DNA of 64,000 bases. Origin: Sulfurospirillum halorespirans DSM 13726. Its GTDB lineage: Bacteria > Campylobacterota > Campylobacteria > Campylobacterales > Sulfurospirillaceae. Location of the stretch: contig NZ_CP017111.1 in NCBI RefSeq assembly GCF_001723605.1, positions 1,240,001-1,304,000 on the forward strand. The letters run 5' to 3'. A program made the position numbers and the translations under genes. The notes under the pieces are model-generated. The model saw only the letters and a list, made by a program, of their open reading frames with translations, searched no databases and was not told where the DNA came from. Positions 5,916 to 62,523 of this stretch are shown here, one piece after another (the first letter of the stretch is position 1; the number at the start of each line of letters is the position of its first letter).

Positions 5916-6767
5916 ATGAAACAAGAACGCATAGTAGATTTGCAGTATCAATTTAACTTAGTTGCGCACAATACAGATGATGAAAATGTTGAGTTTTGGT
6001 ATGCAAGAGATTTACAAGTTGTATTGGGATATCAAAGTTGGGATAAATTTCAAAATGTTATTGAAAAGGCAATGGTTACTTGTGAAAATAGTGGTATAGA
6101 AGTTTTTGACCATTTTCGCCATGTGGGAAAAATGGTCGAGATAGGCTCAAATGCACAACGAGAGATAAAAGACATCGTTTTAACACGGTATGCATGTTAT
6201 CTTATAGCTCAAAATGGTGATAGTTCAAAAGAACAGATAGCGTTTGCTCAGACCTATTTTGCTTTGCAAACACGAAAACAAGAGTTGATAGAACAACGTA
6301 TAGAACTTGAAGACAGGCTAAAAGCAAGAAACAAACTCAAAAACAGTGAAACAGAACTCTCCAAACACATCTATGAACGAGGTGTTGACGACAAGGGGTT
6401 TGGTCGCATTCGTTCACAAGGTGATAGTGCTTTATTTGGAGGGTATAATACCAAAGATATGAAAGACAAACTTGGCATTTCAAGTGGTAGAGTTTTGGCT
6501 GATTTTTTACCCACTGTAACCATTACAGCAAAAAACCTTGCTACTGAGATAACCAACCATAATGTCAAACAAAACAATCTTTATGGCGAAAATCCTATAA
6601 CCCATGAGCATGTAACCAATAACAAAAATGTCAGAAAACTATTGGTAGAGAGTGGTATCAAACCTGAAGAACTTCCACCATCTCAAGACTTGCAAAAGCT
6701 TGAGAGAAAAGTAAAATCGGACGAGAAAAAACTTATAAAAAGCAGTGCTTTGCCTAAAAAAGTTTAA
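5916..6767 (+). CDS. dinD: DNA damage-inducible protein D
   Basis: The 283-residue product matches DinD across its length: the BRO/KilA-N-like N-terminal part FWYARDLQVVLGYQSWDKFQ, the TRYACYLIAQNGD segment, QTYFALQTRKQEL near the middle, GVDDKGFGRIRSQGD and the LADFLPTVTITAKNLATEIT C-terminal part. In E. coli DinD is LexA-regulated and inhibits RecA strand exchange. No LexA-type box was recognised upstream. It sits in an accessory patch between VOC gene copies and may have been transferred. Confidence 0.88.
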   Translation: MKQERIVDLQYQFNLVAHNTDDENVEFWYARDLQVVLGYQSWDKFQNVIEKAMVTCENSGIEVFDHFRHVGKMVEIGSNAQREIKDIVLTRYACYLIAQNGDSSKEQIAFAQTYFALQTRKQELIEQRIELEDRLKARNKLKNSETELSKHIYERGVDDKGFGRIRSQGDSALFGGYNTKDMKDKLGISSGRVLADFLPTVTITAKNLATEITNHNVKQNNLYGENPITHEHVTNNKNVRKLLVESGIKPEELPPSQDLQKLERKVKSDEKKLIKSSALPKKV

Positions 6768-52817: not shown

Positions 52818-53186
52818 TTATTTTCCACCTTTACCTCCACCTCCTTTTCCATTACCGCTACTACCTCCTTTGCCATTGCATGCGCCAGTAGAACTGTTTG
52901 CATTGGAGTTTCTGCCTGTCAGTGCATTGATCTGTTGCGTTTGCACATCTTCGCTTTTTTCAGCATTCAGATCAGCCATCAATTGCTCTCGTTTGGCTTC
53001 ATTTTCAATTCTTGCACGCTCTTTAATCGCTTGAATATAACGCTGACGGAACTGCCTAGGAGCTGAGATCATGTGTGTGGTGAGCTCTTCAATACTCTTA
53101 CTCGTCTGTATCTCTTGTTCAACATCCTTTTCATCAAAAGCATAAAGGTGAACCATAAGCAAAATGGCAAATGTTGCGTATTTCAT
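52818..53186 (-). CDS. Secreted protein with Gly/Lys-rich tail, TCS-linked
   Basis: The 122-residue precursor has a signal peptide (ATFAILLMVHLYAFD), a helical part (MISAPRQFRQRYIQAIKERARIENEAKREQLM) and a tail GKGGSSGNGKGGGGKGGK. The gene at 54985 encodes a similar secreted protein with a like tail, on the other side of the same two-component system. It overlaps the kinase gene by 4 bp and is thus the last gene of the regulatory operon. Function unknown. Confidence 0.65.
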   Translation of the reverse strand: MKYATFAILLMVHLYAFDEKDVEQEIQTSKSIEELTTHMISAPRQFRQRYIQAIKERARIENEAKREQLMADLNAEKSEDVQTQQINALTGRNSNANSSTGACNGKGGSSGNGKGGGGKGGK

Positions 53187-54232
53187 GCTTTCTCCTCGGG
53201 TACGAAAAGCAGGGTGATCGATGTGCCAGTCTCTGGATGACTTTCAAGGGTGATCTGAATGGCTAAAGTATCGCACAATGTTTTAACGATATTCAGTCCA
53301 AGTCCAAGCCCTTTTTCACTCTCTTTATAGTACCGCTCATAGACACGTTTGCAGTTTTTGATGCCAATGCCTGTGTCGCGGATGTTGACGCGATTTCCAA
53401 CATTGCTTAGTATGATGGAACCGTTTTTACGGTTGTATTTACACGCATTTGAGATGAGATTGTCAAAAATACGCGCAATAGAATCGGGATCGCTGTGGAC
53501 GATGCACGGCTCTGTTTTAAAGATAAACGTCAGTTTTGGGTAGAGTTTCTGATAGAGTTTTGCCCTTACATGTAAAAGTTTTTCAAGATCAACTTCGCTT
53601 TTTTTAGGGATAAATCCTTGGTGTAAACTTTCTAAATTACGGTGCAGTGAAGCGATGGTTTTTGCGGCGAGTTCAATACGCTCTAACGCTTCAGAGGGTG
53701 CTGATTGTGCGATAGCTTTTGTATTAAGCAGTATAGACGTGACAGGCGTGTTAAGGTCGTGGATCATGTCTTTTAAAAAGCTTTCCAAAAGATAGAGGGC
53801 ATGTTTGAGCGGATAGAGCGCGTAAAACGAGTACAAAAGTGAAAAGGCAATGATGGCACACAAAAGAAGGCTTAAGATCACGAGCACTTTGTTAAAAAGC
53901 GCATGAAGCTGCGCCTCATAGTGTTGGCTTGGCATAATGACTTTAAACATGGAATTTTTTGCACTTGGAATGGTGAAATACCCACACATACCGCGATCAC
54001 ATGGCTGTAAATTGAGCTCATCGACAGTGCTATCGTAAGGAATGACGTCCATATCAAAGGCATTGTTTTGAAAATCATAGGTAAAAGATCTCATTTCTGA
54101 GAAGATTTGCTCTTCCATAATGTGCTTTTGTTCGTTGTAGTAAAAATAGGCAACTAGTGTGGTCAGAAGCATCAGTGTGGCAAAGAAAATACCAAATGTT
54201 TTAAAAAAAGCCTCTTTCTCATATTTTTTCAA
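53183..54232 (-). CDS. Sensor histidine kinase, paralogue of the kinase at 59681
   Basis: The 349-residue protein has helices near residues 14-33 and 117-140 with a small periplasmic domain containing CDRGMC (a C-x4-C pair), then H-box HDLNTPVTSILLN near residue 160 and ATPase motifs (NACKYNR, IRDTGIGI, GLGLNIVKTL). The cysteine pair could sense redox or metal. It overlaps its regulator by 14 bp. The HxLNTP H-box is shared with the kinase at 59681-60847, so the two systems are paralogous. Confidence 0.87.
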   Translation of the reverse strand: MKKYEKEAFFKTFGIFFATLMLLTTLVAYFYYNEQKHIMEEQIFSEMRSFTYDFQNNAFDMDVIPYDSTVDELNLQPCDRGMCGYFTIPSAKNSMFKVIMPSQHYEAQLHALFNKVLVILSLLLCAIIAFSLLYSFYALYPLKHALYLLESFLKDMIHDLNTPVTSILLNTKAIAQSAPSEALERIELAAKTIASLHRNLESLHQGFIPKKSEVDLEKLLHVRAKLYQKLYPKLTFIFKTEPCIVHSDPDSIARIFDNLISNACKYNRKNGSIILSNVGNRVNIRDTGIGIKNCKRVYERYYKESEKGLGLGLNIVKTLCDTLAIQITLESHPETGTSITLLFVPEEKA

Positions 54233-54854
54233 GACGGTATCCTATACCTTTGACGTTGATGACCTGTAACGAAAAACGCTGTTTGAGTTTGGTGATATGC
54301 ACGCGCAGTGCAACATCGCTTGGCTTCTCCATCACATCAAAAAAATGCTCTTTGAAGATGGTTTGACCCATGTTTCGCATCAGAAGATCAAAAATTTCTT
54401 TCTCCACAAAGCCAAGATCAACCTCTTTCCCCTTGTGGAAAATGCGTTTGTTTAAGAGATCGTAGGCAATGGAGCCGTACGAGAGAACGGGATTTTTTTT
54501 AAGTATATGCGCTTTAATGCGCACTAAAAGCTCGTCAAACTCAAAAGGTTTTTTGATGTAATCATCGCAAGCACTATCAAACGCTTTGGTAATCGTTTGA
54601 ATGTCTTTATACGCACTAATAAAAAAAGCAGGTGTTGTATCGCCACTCTCACGCAGGAGTTTGAGCAGATCAAGACCGTTTAGCAGTGGAACATTGATGT
54701 CGAAAAGATAGAGATCAAAACTAGTTTCATACGAATAACTCAGCGCCTCTTCTCCATCATCGGCATGCACAACTTCATACCCTTCACCCATCAGCAAGCT
54801 TTTGAGTGTTTCACTTAAGAGGTAGTCATCTTCAAGCAGTAAGATTTTTGACAT
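54219..54854 (-). CDS. OmpR-family response regulator
   Basis: The 211-residue protein begins MSKILLLEDDYLLSETLKS. Its phosphoryl Asp is in LYLFDINVPLLNGLDLL near residue 52, and CDDYIKKPFEFDELLVRI carries the conserved Lys. The C-terminal winged helix ends VKGIGYRLEKI. ATG 54854 follows AAGGAG; the longer reading is not supported. It closely resembles the regulator at 59044. Candidate binding repeats lie upstream at 54888-54939. Confidence 0.88.
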   Translation of the reverse strand: MSKILLLEDDYLLSETLKSLLMGEGYEVVHADDGEEALSYSYETSFDLYLFDINVPLLNGLDLLKLLRESGDTTPAFFISAYKDIQTITKAFDSACDDYIKKPFEFDELLVRIKAHILKKNPVLSYGSIAYDLLNKRIFHKGKEVDLGFVEKEIFDLLMRNMGQTIFKEHFFDVMEKPSDVALRVHITKLKQRFSLQVINVKGIGYRLEKI

Positions 54855-54887
54855 GGAGTGCTCCTTACTCAAAGAATAGCAAATATC

Positions 54888-54939
54888 TGTTAATGAAGTG
54901 TTAAAGTAAAAAAAATTTATCCTTAATACTTCGCTAACA
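54888..54939. promoter_or_regulatory. Two facing 11-bp direct-repeat pairs between regulator and secreted-protein genes
   Basis: On the plus strand TGTTAATGAAG (54888) is followed at exactly 11 bp by TGTTAAAGTAA. On the minus strand TGTTAGCGAAG (54939) is followed at 11 bp by TATTAAGGATA (54928). The two pairs face each other in the divergent intergenic region, as expected of an OmpR-type dimer site controlling both sides. Confidence 0.6.
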
Positions 54940-54984
54940 CATTCACCGTATAGTTTCATTATCACTATCTACAAAGGAGCATAG

Positions 54985-55293
54985 ATGAAAAAGAGTCTTT
55001 TAGCGTTGGTATTTTTAGGCGTTGTCTCTTTTGCAACAGACTATACCGCAATGAGCGCAACCGAACTCAGTGCCATGAGAGGAACCATTCCTGCCGAAGA
55101 TAGAACAGCTTTTCAAGCGGCGATGCAGGAAAAAATGCAAACACTGAGTCAAGAAGAGCGTCAAGCGTTAACCCAAGCCCGTACTTCTAGCACAACAGCA
55201 GGAAGTATGGGTGCAGGTTCGGGAAGTGGCAACGGCTCAGGAACGGGTGGCTCAGGTGGCAATGGAAAAGGCGGTGGACGAGGAGGGCGGTAA
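54985..55293 (+). CDS. Secreted protein with Gly-rich tail (DUF1104-like)
   Basis: The 102-residue precursor has a signal peptide (SLLALVFLGVVSFATD), a short domain TAMSATELSAMRGTIPAEDRTAFQAAMQEKMQTLSQEERQAL that resembles DUF1104 proteins of Campylobacterota, and a tail ending GNGKGGGRGGR. It is divergent from the two-component system at 53183-54854 and is its likely target. AAAGGAG precedes the ATG. Confidence 0.68.
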   Translation: MKKSLLALVFLGVVSFATDYTAMSATELSAMRGTIPAEDRTAFQAAMQEKMQTLSQEERQALTQARTSSTTAGSMGAGSGSGNGSGTGGSGGNGKGGGRGGR

Positions 55294-56070: not shown

Positions 56071-57729
56071 TTAAGTTTTCAATAGAGTATCAAAATGCTT
56101 TTTAATATAATCTGCAACGCGAAAGGCATTGGCATAAATCGTCCATGTATAAGGCACACTTCCTCCCGTTGGCATGAAGCTACCGTCGGTTACAAAAAGA
56201 TTGTGTATGTCATAGCTTTGACAATAACGATTGAGTACATGTTTTTCCGGATCATTTCCAAAACGACATCCTCCTGCTTGAAGATTTTGTGGAGGCAGTG
56301 GTGAAATAGCGTAGGTAATATTTTTTGCTCCCATTTTTTCAAGCACCTGTACCGCTTTTTGGGCTAAAAATTCTCCCACTATAACATCTTGAGGATGCGC
56401 TCCTATGCGAATATTTGCAACAGGAATACCGTATTTATCCTTGTATGCTTCATCAACAGAGACAAAACAGTTGTCATTGGGCATCCAATCATTAAAGACT
56501 TCAAAATTGAGTACCCTTTTTGTTGTTAAGGTTTGAAAAATTTTATCTTGAAGTTTTTTCCCAAAGATCAATGTCCCATCTTCTCTTTTAAGGCTGTTTG
56601 CACGTCGTATCGGATTGGCATGTTCAAATAAAAAATCAACAACGCCCCCTTTAAACTCTTGTGTAAAATACCAATCTTTGAGTGCGCGATTGACAAAAAG
56701 CCCTGCTTGTAAAAGTGTCTCTTGATTAAAATGGCTTAAATCAAACTCTCCTGAACCGATACCTCCGCCTGAAAATATCATATTTTTTCCAACAGCCCCT
56801 GATGAGTTAGCAAGTCCTTTTGGAAATGCCTTGTTTTTTGAATTTAATAATAAGCGAGAACTCTCCACTGCTTGTGCTGCAAGGATAAAAAGCTTAGCAT
56901 TGACATACTTTTTAGTCCCTTCTTTTGTGAGGTACTGGGCTCTTTTAATGGTGCGTGTGTTATCTGTTTCTAATTTCACAACAAACGCATTGGCGATAAT
57001 ATGCAGATTTCCCGTTGCTAAAGCGGGCTGAATAAGCGCAGCACGTGAACTTCCCTTTGCTCCACTCGAACAGGCATACGAGCCGCAGTAATTGGAGTAA
57101 TAACAAGGGTTTCGCCCTTCCTTAGGCTCTGAGATAATAGCCCTAGGCGTTTTAAAAGGCGTAAAATGCAAAGCCTTGCAAGCCGTGTCAAAATTTTCAA
57201 CAATAGGATGTTCCGCTAAAGGAAGGTACGGATATTGCGTGGTACTTCGTGGTTCTTGGTGAGCGTACTCTGTTATCTCGCCTGAGACTCCTACGATTCT
57301 CTCTGTGAGTTCATAAAAAGGTTCAAGCTCTTCATACGTAATAGGCCAATCTTCAATATTGGCTCCTTCATAAGCCCCATAAAGAGATTTTAATTTAAAA
57401 TCATTGGGTTTGAGGCGATGGAAAAATCCACTCATAAAGTTTGAAGAGCCTCCCAAAAGGCTACCATTCCAGAAACTCCAGTTATTTTCATACGAAGGCG
57501 TTTTGATCCATTTTTCCTCTTCAAAGCTCTCAATGACATGGTATTCGTCTCTTAATTTTGGTGTAAAAACATCTCGCTTGGTATAGGCTATCTCATCTTT
57601 TGAAAAATCTTTTTCACTGTAGATGTCTCCTTTTTCAAGGATCACCACTTTTTTCCCCGCACAAGAGAGTTCATAAGCAATAGGCCCAGCACCTGCGCCG
57701 CTTCCTACAATACACACATCATACGTCAT
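56071..57729 (-). CDS. GMC family FAD-dependent oxidoreductase
   Basis: The 552-residue protein has the FAD-binding VCIVGSGAGAGPIAYELSCAGKKVVILEKG at the N-terminus, GSLLGGSSNFMSGFFHRLKPND (GMC signature 1) and the C-terminal NLFVTDGSFMPTGGSVPYTWTIYANAFRVADYI. GMC dehydrogenases oxidise alcohols or sugars; two-gene forms like gluconate 2-dehydrogenase pass electrons to a cytochrome subunit, not seen here. It overlaps the small-subunit gene by 4 bp. Confidence 0.88.
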   Translation of the reverse strand: MTYDVCIVGSGAGAGPIAYELSCAGKKVVILEKGDIYSEKDFSKDEIAYTKRDVFTPKLRDEYHVIESFEEEKWIKTPSYENNWSFWNGSLLGGSSNFMSGFFHRLKPNDFKLKSLYGAYEGANIEDWPITYEELEPFYELTERIVGVSGEITEYAHQEPRSTTQYPYLPLAEHPIVENFDTACKALHFTPFKTPRAIISEPKEGRNPCYYSNYCGSYACSSGAKGSSRAALIQPALATGNLHIIANAFVVKLETDNTRTIKRAQYLTKEGTKKYVNAKLFILAAQAVESSRLLLNSKNKAFPKGLANSSGAVGKNMIFSGGGIGSGEFDLSHFNQETLLQAGLFVNRALKDWYFTQEFKGGVVDFLFEHANPIRRANSLKREDGTLIFGKKLQDKIFQTLTTKRVLNFEVFNDWMPNDNCFVSVDEAYKDKYGIPVANIRIGAHPQDVIVGEFLAQKAVQVLEKMGAKNITYAISPLPPQNLQAGGCRFGNDPEKHVLNRYCQSYDIHNLFVTDGSFMPTGGSVPYTWTIYANAFRVADYIKKHFDTLLKT

Positions 57730-58214
57730 ATTTTGCTCCCATAGGTACTTTTAGGACGAGGTTCTCCCTTTAGATGTAAAACAGATTTCCATCCTATTTC
57801 TTGTGTGTTTCCCCCGTAAATTGGATCACCAAACATTGCTTCAAGCGTGTAATAAATCAGCCGTGAGAGCCATTGCTCCAAATAAGGATCCTCACTTGCT
57901 AGCTCTACGATACGGTATTGAGCTTCTGCATTTTCTTGAAAGAAATGAGAAAATTTTTGGTTAAAAATAGAAGCTCCTTTGATCAAAAGTTCCAAATCAT
58001 TTTGATCAAAATAGTGACTGGCGCTATTGACGATTAAAAAGGAAAGGGCATTGACATTTTTTGCAGAAGGCATCTGCTCTGTTGCAGGAAATAAGACTTC
58101 TTGGACACTTTCTATGGTTTTCCACACAGAAGCAGGAACATCTTTAGCATAAGCATCCATGTTTAAAAAAAAAGGTGATGAAGCACTCAGTGCTATAAAG
58201 GTACGTCTATTCAT
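57726..58214 (-). CDS. Gluconate 2-dehydrogenase subunit 3-like protein
   Basis: The 162-residue protein starts with a Tat-type signal (MNRRTFIALSASSPFFLNM) and has ASVWKTIESVQEVLFPATEQMPSA and QWLSRLIYYTLEAMFGDPIYGGN, the pattern of the small subunit of membrane-bound GMC dehydrogenases. It would carry its GMC partner (56071-57729) through the Tat system. An earlier ATG at 58223 is possible. Confidence 0.82.
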   Translation of the reverse strand: MNRRTFIALSASSPFFLNMDAYAKDVPASVWKTIESVQEVLFPATEQMPSAKNVNALSFLIVNSASHYFDQNDLELLIKGASIFNQKFSHFFQENAEAQYRIVELASEDPYLEQWLSRLIYYTLEAMFGDPIYGGNTQEIGWKSVLHLKGEPRPKSTYGSKI

Positions 58215-58257
58215 AGTGTGCATTCTAACACAGACATGTAAAACTTTTGTGTAATAC

Positions 58258-58299
58258 GACTACATATTCACTACACAAAATGTCACTATACTGTCACTA
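58258..58299. promoter_or_regulatory. Four half-sites in the divergent KCG-peptide/GMC intergenic region
   Basis: GACTA at 58258, then CACTA at 58269, 58284 and 58295, give two pairs with 11-bp spacing. The last two are within TGTCACTA repeats. A possible -10 (TATACT, 58287-58292) is inside. This layout suits OmpR-type binding, most simply by the regulator encoded at 59044. Confidence 0.55.
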
Positions 58300-58323: not shown

Positions 58324-58557
58324 ATGCAAGTATTTTCTAAAGTTAAACTTTTCGCAGCACTCTTGATAGCTGCTATGTTCGTAAGCGGTGCTATGGCAGC
58401 TGAAAGTAAATGTGGTGGTGAAATGAACGCTACGAAAGATGCGAAAGAGATGAAAAAACCAGCTGACGCTAAATGTGGAGGCGACAAAGCGAGTGATGCT
58501 AAAAAACCAGCTGATGCCAAATGTGGTGCTGCTAAATGCGGTGGCGAAAAGAAATAA
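58324..58557 (+). CDS. Secreted Cys-rich KCG-repeat peptide, HvfA/bufferin-like precursor
   Basis: The 77-residue precursor has a signal peptide (LFAALLIAAMFVSGAMA) and a mature part of about 50 residues made of Lys/Ala/Asp with four KCG motifs: SKCGGE, AKCGGD and AKCGAAKCGGE. HvfA-type bufferin precursors carry such EGKCG/KCG motifs, whose cysteines are modified by MNIO (DUF692) enzymes and bind copper. A DoxX gene follows directly, as in hvf operons. No DUF692 or DUF2063 gene is in the window. AAAGGAG (58309-58315) precedes the ATG. Confidence 0.78.
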   Translation: MQVFSKVKLFAALLIAAMFVSGAMAAESKCGGEMNATKDAKEMKKPADAKCGGDKASDAKKPADAKCGAAKCGGEKK

Positions 58558-58563
58558 TCTGCA

Positions 58564-58998
58564 ATGCGGTTATTTCTTGTTAACACAATGCAATCAATCG
58601 TATTGTTGAGTGTGAGACTTATGTTGGCATATGGATTTTATGAACCATCTGTACGGAAGTGGAGCGATATTCATTCCGTTGCAGAGTGGTTTGAAACACT
58701 TAATATTCCTTTTCCTTTACTCAACGCTTACCTTTCAGCAAGCATTGAGAGTGTGGGTGTTGTTTTACTGATTTTAGGCTTATTAACGAGATGGATTTCA
58801 CTACCATTAAGTGCTGTTATGGTGGTTGCAATTCTAAGCGTTCATTTACACAATGGCTTTAGTGCAACCGATGGAGGTTTTGAAATTCCTCTTTACTATC
58901 TGATATTTCTTGGTGTACTATGTGCCTTTGGCGCAGGAAAAATCAGCTTAGATTATTTTCTTTTTGAGAAAAAAAAGCCATCATCGTGTATGCCATAG
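58564..58998 (+). CDS. DoxX family membrane protein (HvfX-like)
   Basis: The 144-residue protein has four helices: QSIVLLSVRLMLAYGFYEPSVRKW, LSASIESVGVVLLILGLLTRW, SLPLSAVMVVAILSVHLHNGF and GFEIPLYYLIFLGVLCAFGAG. This is the DoxX fold. It starts 6 bp after the KCG-peptide gene, so the two are one unit. DoxX proteins accompany bufferin-type operons, with unknown mechanism. The last residues (SSCMP) carry a cysteine. Confidence 0.82.
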   Translation: MRLFLVNTMQSIVLLSVRLMLAYGFYEPSVRKWSDIHSVAEWFETLNIPFPLLNAYLSASIESVGVVLLILGLLTRWISLPLSAVMVVAILSVHLHNGFSATDGGFEIPLYYLIFLGVLCAFGAGKISLDYFLFEKKKPSSCMP

Positions 58999-59043
58999 CT
59001 TTGCAAAAGGCTATGGTATAATTGGCTTAAAAGGAAGTGGTCG

Positions 59044-59700
59044 ATGAAAATTTTACTGCTAGAAGATGATCCAATTTTATCTGATATTCTACTTTGTCAT
59101 CTGAATCGCCATCTTCATCAAACGACTCACTTTAGCGATGGGCAGTCAGCGTCTGATGCACTCAGTACCCAAAAATTTGATCTTTTAATCCTTGATATTA
59201 ATGTCCCAAAACTCAGTGGTATTGATCTTATTAAAGAAATTCGTACCTATAAAGACACGACACCTGCTATTATCATTACCGCGTTTCAAGATACGGCTCA
59301 TTTGAAAAAAGGATTTGAAAATGGTTGCGATGATTACATCAAAAAGCCTTTTGATCTTGAAGAGCTTGACTTGCGCATTAAAAACATTCAAAAACGATTT
59401 AACCTTATCAATGAACAAGCCATCATTATTGATTCTCATCTTTCTTTAATGGCTTCTAAAAACCGTTTGTATGTCAATGAAATACCTTACACCCTGACGC
59501 GTAAAGAGTGCAAAATCTTACTCTATTTAAGTAACCACAAAAGTAAGGTTGTCTCCTCAGAAGAGCTGATGCAAAATTTATGGGACTATGATGAAATGCC
59601 TAGCGAAGCGACGATTAGGGTTTACATTAAAAATCTACGCACTATCATTGGAAAAGATAAAATTCAAACCGTTAGAGGGAATGGATATATTTTTGAATAA
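59044..59700 (+). CDS. OmpR-family response regulator of KCG-peptide locus
   Basis: The 218-residue protein has a receiver domain (KILLLEDD, phosphoryl Asp in LLILDINVPKLSGIDL near residue 52, CDDYIKKPFDLEELDLRI) and a winged-helix domain (LTRKECKILLYLSNHKSKVVSSEELMQNLW, ATIRVYIKNLRTIIGKDKIQTVRGNGYIFE). It is a paralogue of the regulator at 54219. It likely controls the KCG-peptide genes just upstream. Confidence 0.88.
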   Translation: MKILLLEDDPILSDILLCHLNRHLHQTTHFSDGQSASDALSTQKFDLLILDINVPKLSGIDLIKEIRTYKDTTPAIIITAFQDTAHLKKGFENGCDDYIKKPFDLEELDLRIKNIQKRFNLINEQAIIIDSHLSLMASKNRLYVNEIPYTLTRKECKILLYLSNHKSKVVSSEELMQNLWDYDEMPSEATIRVYIKNLRTIIGKDKIQTVRGNGYIFE

Positions 59701-60847
59701 AGAAGAACAGGGCGCATTATGGCGATTTTTAATCATCTATGTCACTTCTGCACTCTTTCTCATGAGCATTATTGCTATCTTGTACTACAACAATGAAACC
59801 AATAAGCTTCATGAAAAACGTTCAATGGAAATTAAAACCGTTGTGATGAGTTACGAAAAAGAGTTGATGCAAGCAGAAATGGATAAAGTGCCGTATCTGT
59901 TTCATCCACCCAAAGAATTTTTCACGGTTGCTTTGTTAAAAGAAGATAAACAGACTCTTTTTTCAAGCTTTAAAACTCCGTTGCTTGATTTAAATACAAC
60001 ACCGTATGCTGTTCATCGATTAGCAACTCCTATTAATGGAGTTGCTTACATTGTTGTTGATGAAGAAATGAGCGAACGAGAGATACTCAAACTGAAATTA
60101 ATTATTTTGTTTACAATGGTTATATCTGCAATCTTTGTGGGTGTTGAAGGCTACTTTTTAAGCCGCTTGTTGCTTAAGCCTGTTCACTTGCGCATTGAAA
60201 AGCTCAACCATTTCATTAAAGACAGTTCTCATGAACTAAATACACCCGTTGCCGCTTTAATGATGAGTGTTTCAAACTTGAAGCAAAGCTCGTTTAAAGA
60301 TGTACGTGTTATCAACCATATTTCCATTAGCACAAAACTCATTTCTCAAATTTACAATAGTCTTAGTTATATTGCGTTTCATGATATTGATGAAGTGTTT
60401 GAAGAGTCATTTGATCTTGCCCTCTTAGTCCAAGAGAGTGTTGGATTTTTTAATGAAATAGCTTCCACCAAAGACAATATAATTACAGCACAACTTCAAA
60501 CAACATTCGTTTACATGGATAAATCACGTATTCAAAAAGTTATCCACAATCTTCTCTCGAATGCTATTAAATACAGTTATCCCAAAACAGCGATTTGCGT
60601 TAAGCTTTCAGAACATCTTTTAACCGTTAAAAATGAAGGTGTTGGCATTTGTAAAGAGAATCAAAAGAGCATTTTTAAGCGCTTTGAGAGACGAAGCAAT
60701 GCGGTGGGAGGCTTTGGTATAGGGTTGGATATTGTGAATTCTGTTTGTAAAATGTATGATATAAAAGTATGGGTTGAATCCATCCCAAATAAAGAGACAA
60801 ACTTCTTTTTACAATTTCCTTTAACTCAAAAATTGACAAAAAAATAA
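59681..60847 (+). CDS. Sensor histidine kinase of KCG-peptide locus
   Basis: The 388-residue protein has helices near residues 15-37 and 145-165 with a short periplasmic sensor, an H-box SSHELNTPVAALMMSV and ATPase motifs (NLLSNAIKYSY, GFGIGLDIVNSV). The start is ATG 59681, inside the regulator gene (20-bp overlap); TTG 59693 is an alternative. It is paralogous to the kinase at 53183. The short sensor has no evident metal-binding cluster. Confidence 0.86.
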   Translation: MDIFLNKEEQGALWRFLIIYVTSALFLMSIIAILYYNNETNKLHEKRSMEIKTVVMSYEKELMQAEMDKVPYLFHPPKEFFTVALLKEDKQTLFSSFKTPLLDLNTTPYAVHRLATPINGVAYIVVDEEMSEREILKLKLIILFTMVISAIFVGVEGYFLSRLLLKPVHLRIEKLNHFIKDSSHELNTPVAALMMSVSNLKQSSFKDVRVINHISISTKLISQIYNSLSYIAFHDIDEVFEESFDLALLVQESVGFFNEIASTKDNIITAQLQTTFVYMDKSRIQKVIHNLLSNAIKYSYPKTAICVKLSEHLLTVKNEGVGICKENQKSIFKRFERRSNAVGGFGIGLDIVNSVCKMYDIKVWVESIPNKETNFFLQFPLTQKLTKK

Positions 60848-60957: not shown

Positions 60958-62523
60958 ATGGCAAGTAGTGATGATTTAAAACAGACCAATAAGCTCGTTC
61001 TTCGTAATTTAGAACTCAAAGATTATACGCAAGTTAAAAAAATCATGGACAGAGTCTATCCTACCCTTGGCGGTTGGACGATCGAGGAATTTACCGCACA
61101 ACTGACTACGTTTCCTGAAGGGCAAATCTGCATCGAAGATGATGGTAAAGTGATTGCAGCGGCGCAGAGTTTGATCGTGGACTATGACACCTTTGGCGAT
61201 CGCCATACCTACAACCAAATCACGGGAAATGGACTCATCTCAACGCACGATCCTAAAGGCAATACGCTTTATGGGCTGGACATCTTTGTTGACCCCGATT
61301 ACCGAGGGCTCCGACTTGGAAGACGGCTTTACGATGCGCGAAAAGAGCTCTGCTACAGGCTCAATCTCAAGCGCATCATCGCAGGCGGACGCATCCCTGG
61401 GTATGCTGCACATGCCGATGAGATGACCCCTTCAAAATACATCGATTTGGTGAAAGATAAAGAGCTTAGTGACCATGTTTTAGGCTTTCAACTTGCCAAT
61501 GACTTTCATGTCAGACGTGTCTTAAAAGGCTACCTCAAAGGTGATGCTGCTTCACGTGAATATGCCACGCTTTTGGAGTGGAGTAATGTCGATTATGAAG
61601 AGCCTCACACCAATCCAACGGTGAACCGCGGCATCGTGCGCGTGGGCATTGTTCAGTGGCAGATGCGTAGTGTTAAAAGCGTGGAAGAGTTTTTGGATCA
61701 AGTGGAGTTTTTTGTGGATGCGATGGCAGGCTACAACGCGGATTTTGTGCTGTTCCCTGAATTTTTCAACGCACCACTGATGGCATTGCGTTCCGATGAA
61801 AACCCTGAAACGGCGATTCGCACCGTCGCCGCCCACACCGACACGTTGGTGGAAAAAATAGGGCAATTTGCCGTGCGTTACAACATCAATATCATCGCTG
61901 GCAGTATGCCCGAATACGATGGCAATACGCTCTACAACGCCAGTTATTTGTGCCGTCGTGATGGTACGAAAGATTCACAGAAAAAATTGCACATCACGCC
62001 CGATGAAGAGGCGTATTGGGGCATGCACGGAGGCGATAAACTCTGCGTGTTTGAAACCGATGTGGGACGTGTGGGCATTTTGGTCTGTTACGATGTCGAG
62101 TACCCCGAACTTCCACGCCTTTTAGCCGATCAAGGCATTGATATTCTCTTTGTACCGTACTGGACGGATACCAAAAACAGCTACTTACGTGTGCGTCGTT
62201 GCGCGCAAGCTAGAGCCATTGAAAACGAGTGTTATGTTGCGATTTCAGGCAGTGTTGGAACCCTTCCAAAAGTTGAAAATATGGACATTCAGTACTCCCA
62301 ATCGGCGGTCTTTAGCCCTTCGGATTTTGCGTTTCCACACGATGCAACGATTGCCGAAGCCACGCCAAATACCGAGATGACCTTGGTCGCCGATCTTGAT
62401 CTGAGTCTTTTAAAAGAGCTAAGAGAACGAGGCAGCGTGCGCAATCTGCGTTCACGTCGTAATGATTTGTACAGTCTGAAATGGAAAGGCGATAAAGAAG
62501 ATTTTGTCGTGGTTCAAGGCTAG
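60958..62523 (+). CDS. GNAT-nitrilase fusion (carbon-nitrogen hydrolase)
   Basis: The 521-residue protein has an N-terminal GNAT domain (LRNLELKDYTQVKKIMDRVYP, DPDYRGLRLGRRLYDARKELC) to about residue 215 and a C-terminal nitrilase domain with Glu in FVLFPEFFNAP, Lys in SQKKLHITPDE and Cys in ILVCYDVEYPE. This GNAT-nitrilase fusion is widespread and likely acts on an amide whose acyl group or amine is also handled by the GNAT domain. Substrate unknown. It is 1 bp from the RNase H gene. Confidence 0.88.
   Translation: MASSDDLKQTNKLVLRNLELKDYTQVKKIMDRVYPTLGGWTIEEFTAQLTTFPEGQICIEDDGKVIAAAQSLIVDYDTFGDRHTYNQITGNGLISTHDPKGNTLYGLDIFVDPDYRGLRLGRRLYDARKELCYRLNLKRIIAGGRIPGYAAHADEMTPSKYIDLVKDKELSDHVLGFQLANDFHVRRVLKGYLKGDAASREYATLLEWSNVDYEEPHTNPTVNRGIVRVGIVQWQMRSVKSVEEFLDQVEFFVDAMAGYNADFVLFPEFFNAPLMALRSDENPETAIRTVAAHTDTLVEKIGQFAVRYNINIIAGSMPEYDGNTLYNASYLCRRDGTKDSQKKLHITPDEEAYWGMHGGDKLCVFETDVGRVGILVCYDVEYPELPRLLADQGIDILFVPYWTDTKNSYLRVRRCAQARAIENECYVAISGSVGTLPKVENMDIQYSQSAVFSPSDFAFPHDATIAEATPNTEMTLVADLDLSLLKELRERGSVRNLRSRRNDLYSLKWKGDKEDFVVVQG

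Follow-up and report, generated by a model that had tools for sequence, protein, structure and literature searches.

The locus and its genes

The window, a 64,000-nucleotide stretch of DNA from Sulfurospirillum halorespirans DSM 13726, contains on its plus strand four consecutive genes. They encode a secreted, HvfA-like peptide of 77 amino acids with four KCG motifs (58324–58557), a DoxX membrane protein of the HvfX family (58564–58998; NF050144, PF07681), an OmpR-type response regulator with Response_reg and Trans_reg_C domains (59044–59700), which belongs to a clade of hvf-linked regulators, and a sensor histidine kinase with HisKA and HATPase_c domains (59681–60847). The DoxX gene starts 6 bp past the stop codon of the peptide, and the kinase most likely starts at the ATG at 59681, overlapping the regulator, rather than at 59588.

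An earlier sequence-only reading had described the signal peptide, its four KCG motifs and this gene order correctly, and had regarded the locus as a possible orphan. The latter does not hold, as a divergent gene pair next door was missed. This pair spans 56071–58223 on the minus strand, just beyond the segment considered in that reading, and is formed by G3 (57726–58223), a small protein of the Gluconate_2-dh3 family (PF13618) with an RR-type, Tat-like signal, and by a GMC-family flavoprotein (56071–57729; PF05199/PF00732). The two genes overlap by 4 bp and both diverge from the peptide gene; the start methionine of G3 is at 58223 or 58214.

A second OmpR-type regulator/kinase pair at 53183–54965 (minus strand), whose regulator falls outside the hvf-linked clade, diverges from a gene for a small secreted Gly-rich protein (54985–55293, plus strand) with weak matches to DUF1104 and Metal_resist. 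Directly 3' of the hvf-linked kinase, a GNAT acetyltransferase domain is fused to a carbon-nitrogen hydrolase (60958–62523, plus strand). The fusion protein follows the kinase in genome G016 and is missing from this position in G022 and G020, so it is probably unrelated to the hvf locus.

The KCG peptide and the missing maturation enzymes

In Haemophilus, the hvfABCX operon encodes a peptide, HvfA, whose cysteines are converted by HvfB together with HvfC to copper-binding 5-thiooxazoles in a reaction that uses oxygen (PMC13419390). The Sulfurospirillum locus resembles this oxazolin system in having a Sec-exported peptide with C-terminal KCG repeats and an HvfX-family DoxX protein in a small operon, and the Hvf/bufferin kinship proposed from the sequence is upheld by profile scores. 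The DoxX protein reaches 116 bits on the HvfX model NF050144 (curated cut-off 80), and the peptide 18.5 bits on the HvfA (KCGExKCG_twice) model NF050137, narrowly below the curated cut-off of 19.5. The peptide has the Sec-type signal and repeated KCG expected of the Hvf/oxazolin (Buf_EGKCG) type, with a hydrophobic N-terminus that ends in AMA before AES. Its motifs occur as SKCGG, DAKCGG and DAKCGAAKCGG and not as EGKCG, in contrast to the AEGKCGEGKCG context of the Haemophilus peptide.

The same peptide, with its KCG motifs kept, is found in five other Sulfurospirillum replicons, six in total, and its pairwise dN/dS is about 0.06–0.16 for the better-diverged pairs with finite dS. Its conservation and low dN/dS indicate that the peptide is not a chance open reading frame, and the purifying selection that it is maintained without MNIO; a decaying pseudo-locus is ruled out on the same ground. 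The two Sulfurospirillum versions that occur without HvfX contain three KCG motifs, and those with HvfX contain four.

Unlike Haemophilus hvfABCX, the locus adds the G3-GMC pair and a two-component system, and HvfB and HvfC are absent throughout. The sequence-only reading had noted that genes for MNIO (DUF692) and its partner DUF2063 are missing from the window and had suggested a genome search. In the complete, one-contig genome of 3.03 Mb, neither MNIO (PF05114) nor DUF2063 (PF09836) gives a match, so both enzymes expected of a Hvf/oxazolin (Buf_EGKCG) cluster are lacking genome-wide and maturation in trans by an MNIO, which had been offered as one possibility, is excluded.

In two loci of the MNIO type, the peptide beside an intact MNIO has turned Met-rich and HvfX is also gone. 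All cysteines are lost from one of these peptides (L126 of G039, 6267–6506, minus strand) and all but one from the other (L124 of G038, near 6172–6435, minus strand).

Distribution of the two enzyme pairs

Among 397 Campylobacterota genomes that are 90% complete or more, HvfX is found above its cut-off in 59, MNIO in 25 and the GMC family in 69. The 59 HvfX genomes divide into 41 with GMC and without MNIO, 12 with MNIO and without GMC, four with both and two with neither. The odds ratio for HvfX and GMC is 42 (p 2e-29) and the exclusion between GMC and MNIO among HvfX genomes has a p of 1e-7, both p values ignoring shared ancestry. The DNA pattern for KCGxxKCG matches 64 of the 397 genomes. 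Where at least two sites are present (39 genomes), 31 have only GMC, seven only MNIO, one has both and none has neither; the nine KCGxxKCG genomes without GMC or MNIO contain single matches, at about the level of a reversed-pattern control.

The same picture is seen at finer scale. In the genus of the window, KCG occurs in six genomes. Five of these lack MNIO and are exactly the five with GMC; the other one has MNIO, and all remaining genomes lack KCG, MNIO and GMC. KCG, HvfX and GMC all occur in the same four genomes of genus g16. In a set of 93 loci (80 HvfX loci from public genomes and 13 from the family of the window), MNIO/DUF2063 is present in 16, GMC and/or G3 in 42, and both in none. 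In 41 of 70 loci, the distance from G3 to a KCG peptide is at most 1.5 kb; the distant flanks, 327 kb in all, contain none. The mutual exclusion of GMC and MNIO suggests that the maturation step has been replaced.

PMC12452194 lists precursors of the Buf_EGKCG type without MNIO for 67 of 2583 genomes (Table 3) and describes them as rare; they were considered to be possibly unmodified or non-functional, and activities that need no modification were discussed. The present locus is like these cases, which were left unexplained, in that a precursor is present and MNIO absent. In Campylobacterota, however, this situation is found in 43 of the 59 HvfX genomes and is tied to one enzyme pair.

The sequence-only reading had offered an unmodified cysteine peptide that handles metal as its other possibility. 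In an extended form of this explanation, the peptide still binds metal in its bare state after the loss of MNIO and DUF2063, and G3-GMC has an unrelated job, such as sugar oxidation, and is co-regulated by the same stress. Such an arrangement would agree with the modification-free activities considered in PMC12452194 and with the existence of related GMC proteins without a visible KCG peptide. It is improbable in view of the strong co-occurrence and linkage of GMC and peptide in several independent arrangements, and of the loss of the catalytic residues of sugar dehydrogenases in every aligned member of the GMC family. About 21–25 of the 69 GMC genomes, in particular Arcobacteraceae-like ones, have no KCGxxKCG site or nearby KCG peptide, and in the tree the GMC clade of the window nests beside such Arcobacteraceae-like genes. 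GMC may therefore have a role without the peptide, which speaks against a strict link. No convincing non-KCG cysteine peptide was seen beside these "lone" GMC genes.

Gene orders and mobility

The GMC-type loci are arranged in several ways. In Sulfurovum-like and Sulfurospirillum loci, G3-GMC is divergent from peptide-HvfX; Sulfurimonas-like loci have the order peptide-HvfX-(FMN glutamate-synthase-like)-G3-GMC, Campylobacter-like loci peptide-HvfX-G3-GMC, and other loci peptide-G3-GMC with HvfX missing. In the family of the window, the GMC type has the order hvfA-hvfX-regulator-kinase with G3-GMC divergent, and the MNIO type hvfA-hvfB-hvfC-hvfX-regulator-kinase, in some cases without hvfX. Close downstream of the KCG peptides of 16 Sulfurovum-like loci (e.g. 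L036:7359–8099), the beta chain of a ferredoxin-thioredoxin reductase is fused to a rhodanese.

A GMC protein 82% identical to that of the window is encoded on plasmid pSulSP of Sulfurospirillum sp. 'SP' (L213, NZ_CP118374.1, 148131–173780). There, msrQ-msrP-kinase-regulator-KCG peptide stands next to G3-GMC without HvfX; a plasmid search with HvfX gave no match. The locus is surrounded by Tn3 and IS transposases and toxin-antitoxin genes, and its position among transposases on a plasmid indicates that it is mobile.

Plain co-inheritance would make the association of GMC with the peptide purely phylogenetic, the genes tracking a few lineages such as Sulfurovum and Sulfurimonas. A few genera do contribute many of the genomes, yet this explanation is already largely refuted and very improbable: presence is patchy within genera g1 and g16, with the genes there or missing together, alternative enzymes occur in sister genomes of g1, g32 and g49, a plasmid copy lies between transposons, and the HvfX and GMC trees force several label changes.

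HvfX is absent from several loci that have both GMC and a KCG peptide (G021, pSulSP, G070, G072, G087 and G280), which shows that it is not an obligatory part. The same absences weaken the idea that HvfX is the compulsory electron acceptor. Tandem HvfX pairs are present in L042, L043, L045, L062, L072 and L109, and form two separate clades in the HvfX tree. A PF01645 FMN-binding glutamate-synthase-like protein is encoded just after HvfX in 25 loci (L034, L037, L050, L071, L074 and 20 more), with or without GMC or MNIO.

The GMC flavoprotein and G3

The predicted structure of the GMC protein (mean pLDDT 72) has the fold of FAD-dependent glucose and fructose dehydrogenases along its full chain, with a Z-score of 36.6 over 494 residues against fructose dehydrogenase (FDH) and of about 32 against FAD-glucose dehydrogenase (FAD-GDH). 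It shares with the FAD-GDH gamma-alpha complex (6A2U) and the FDH large subunit (7W2J, 9JQA) this whole-chain fold, three aligned Fe-S cysteines and a small, separately encoded partner. The cysteines of 6A2U bind a 3Fe-4S cluster; they align with C209, C215 and C220, which are invariant in the GMC relatives, and the protein would probably hold such a cluster as well. Unlike these enzymes, to which it is about 25% identical, it has no adjoining cytochrome subunit and lacks the catalytic His and Asn. The position of the catalytic His (FDH H1147, marked by the H1147A structure) is occupied by Leu483 and that of the catalytic Asn (FDH N1190) by Pro526, while FDH N1146 is retained as N482. None of the aligned relatives in the KCG-linked GMC family has a His at the catalytic position. 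Owing to these substitutions the protein is probably not a sugar dehydrogenase; its catalysis is putative, and the missing canonical residues count against a replacement of the maturation enzyme.

The Campylobacter-type gluconate dehydrogenase also belongs to the GMC family, but forms a separate clade and retains the catalytic His, and tree and residues together rule out that the GMC protein of the locus is this enzyme. The gluconate dehydrogenase GMC of genus g15 has 573 amino acids and matches at only about 1e-35 to 1e-45; from its length and map position it is presumably Cj0415-like. A possible natural loss of GMC is seen in L182 (G171): the gene contains an in-frame TGA and is split in two, with HvfX and the KCG peptide retained.

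G3 scores 29.3 bits on PF13618, and the RR motif is seen in the alignment. Its predicted structure is helical and confident (pLDDT 87), and a fold search against the PDB gave nothing above Z 3.2. From the PF13618 match, G3 may have the fold of the FAD-GDH gamma subunit; sequence comparison gave no match. G3 is a putative export or assembly partner of GMC.

Cys488, near the flavin end of the GMC protein, is kept in most members. Together with the replaced His and Asn, this unusual cysteine lends some weight to a role in redox maintenance or repair, where the peptide would buffer metal through unmodified thiols, with GMC/G3 maintaining the redox state of its cysteines or bound metal without adding a new group. 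Genes for MsrP and MsrQ, which repair oxidised proteins, adjoin several loci, MNIO-type and GMC-type alike, and fit such a role. So do the peptides themselves: Gly follows Cys in 93% of cases in MNIO-linked peptides and in 48% in GMC-linked ones, where KCQ, KCD, KCS and KCA are tolerated, a contrast in sequence hinting at differing demands on the substrate. Nevertheless, this role is rather unlikely, as the exclusion with MNIO suggests a replaced maturation step and Cys488 is an Ala in Campylobacter-type members.

Regulation

The two-component system had been taken in the sequence-only reading for an uncommon addition to a Hvf-type locus. The hvf-linked regulators form one clade of 12 rows (support 99/98), which covers both MNIO-type and GMC-type loci of the family of the window, so the system is no oddity of this locus. 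Within the clade, the GMC type is nested beside an MNIO type with support of 85/87, which is not strong, and the HvfX tree shows no direction for the swap between MNIO and GMC.

Upstream of the peptide gene lies an 11-bp direct repeat, CTACA-N6-CTACA (58259–58277, plus strand); the longer pattern at these positions has no second match in the genome, even when one mismatch is allowed. It is present upstream of the peptide in six of six GMC-type loci and in the MNIO-type loci of G032 and G035; most other MNIO-type loci have degenerate versions with single or variant repeats. The repeat is a putative operator to which the regulator would bind. A TGTCAC repeat, also considered as an operator, is conserved in part only and probably overlaps the -10 box, and the CTACA repeat is preferred. 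By eye, a possible -10 box of the peptide promoter, TATACT, is at 58287–58292 (plus strand), and a pair of inverted arms, TTTTGTGTA at 58245–58253 and TACACAAAA at 58272–58280, of undefined strand, may serve the divergent G3-GMC operon. The inverted arm TTGTGTAAT, facing G3, is found in six of six GMC-type loci, and none was seen upstream of hvfA in MNIO-type loci.

Of the 12 hvf-linked kinases, 11 share Met63 and Met67 in the N-terminal sensor region. Hypochlorite and copper both act as inducers of MsrPQ in E. coli (PMC9302797), so copper or an oxidant is a plausible signal for the kinase.

Proposed function

The gene content, the co-occurrence, the mutual exclusion with MNIO and the shared regulator clade are best explained if the locus is a variant of the Hvf/oxazolin type for a periplasmic metal peptide, with the exported GMC/G3 pair as functional replacement of MNIO/DUF2063, a reading given a probability of roughly 0.55. 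The kinase would sense envelope stress in the form of copper and/or an oxidant, and the regulator, acting on the CTACA direct repeat, would switch on peptide-HvfX-regulator-kinase and probably also the divergent G3-GMC operon. The peptide would leave the cytoplasm via Sec, while GMC with FAD and probably a 3Fe-4S cluster would exit folded, together with G3, via Tat. In the periplasm, GMC would act on or with the KCG cysteines, in the simplest case oxidizing them to a form that holds the metal, presumably copper, and would hand the electrons to some acceptor.

A more specific version of this proposal is tentative and has less than an even chance of being right: maturation of KCG metallophore peptides would have a second enzyme class, in which a flavin/Fe-S protein of the GMC family, exported by Tat and with a remodelled active site, takes the place of MNIO. 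Conversion of the cysteines would then follow export and might do without oxygen, unlike the cytoplasmic MNIO reaction, which depends on it. A literature search on GMC proteins with bufferin, thiooxazole or gluconate 2-dehydrogenase subunit 3 gave nothing relevant either way.

Copper peptides made by MNIO are a widespread class that was recognised recently, and precursors without MNIO are unexplained in the literature. The pairing with GMC points to a second mode, so far overlooked, of producing or operating such metal-binding peptides, and the DoxX/HvfX protein gains two enzyme backgrounds for comparison. If the proposal is true, an unrelated flavoenzyme has taken over from an iron enzyme throughout a phylum in which microaerophiles and anaerobes predominate. 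The replacement could then serve as a natural experiment on the requirements of the peptide; it might also provide a way to the same group that is independent of oxygen, and would bring to light a GMC active site of a new type.
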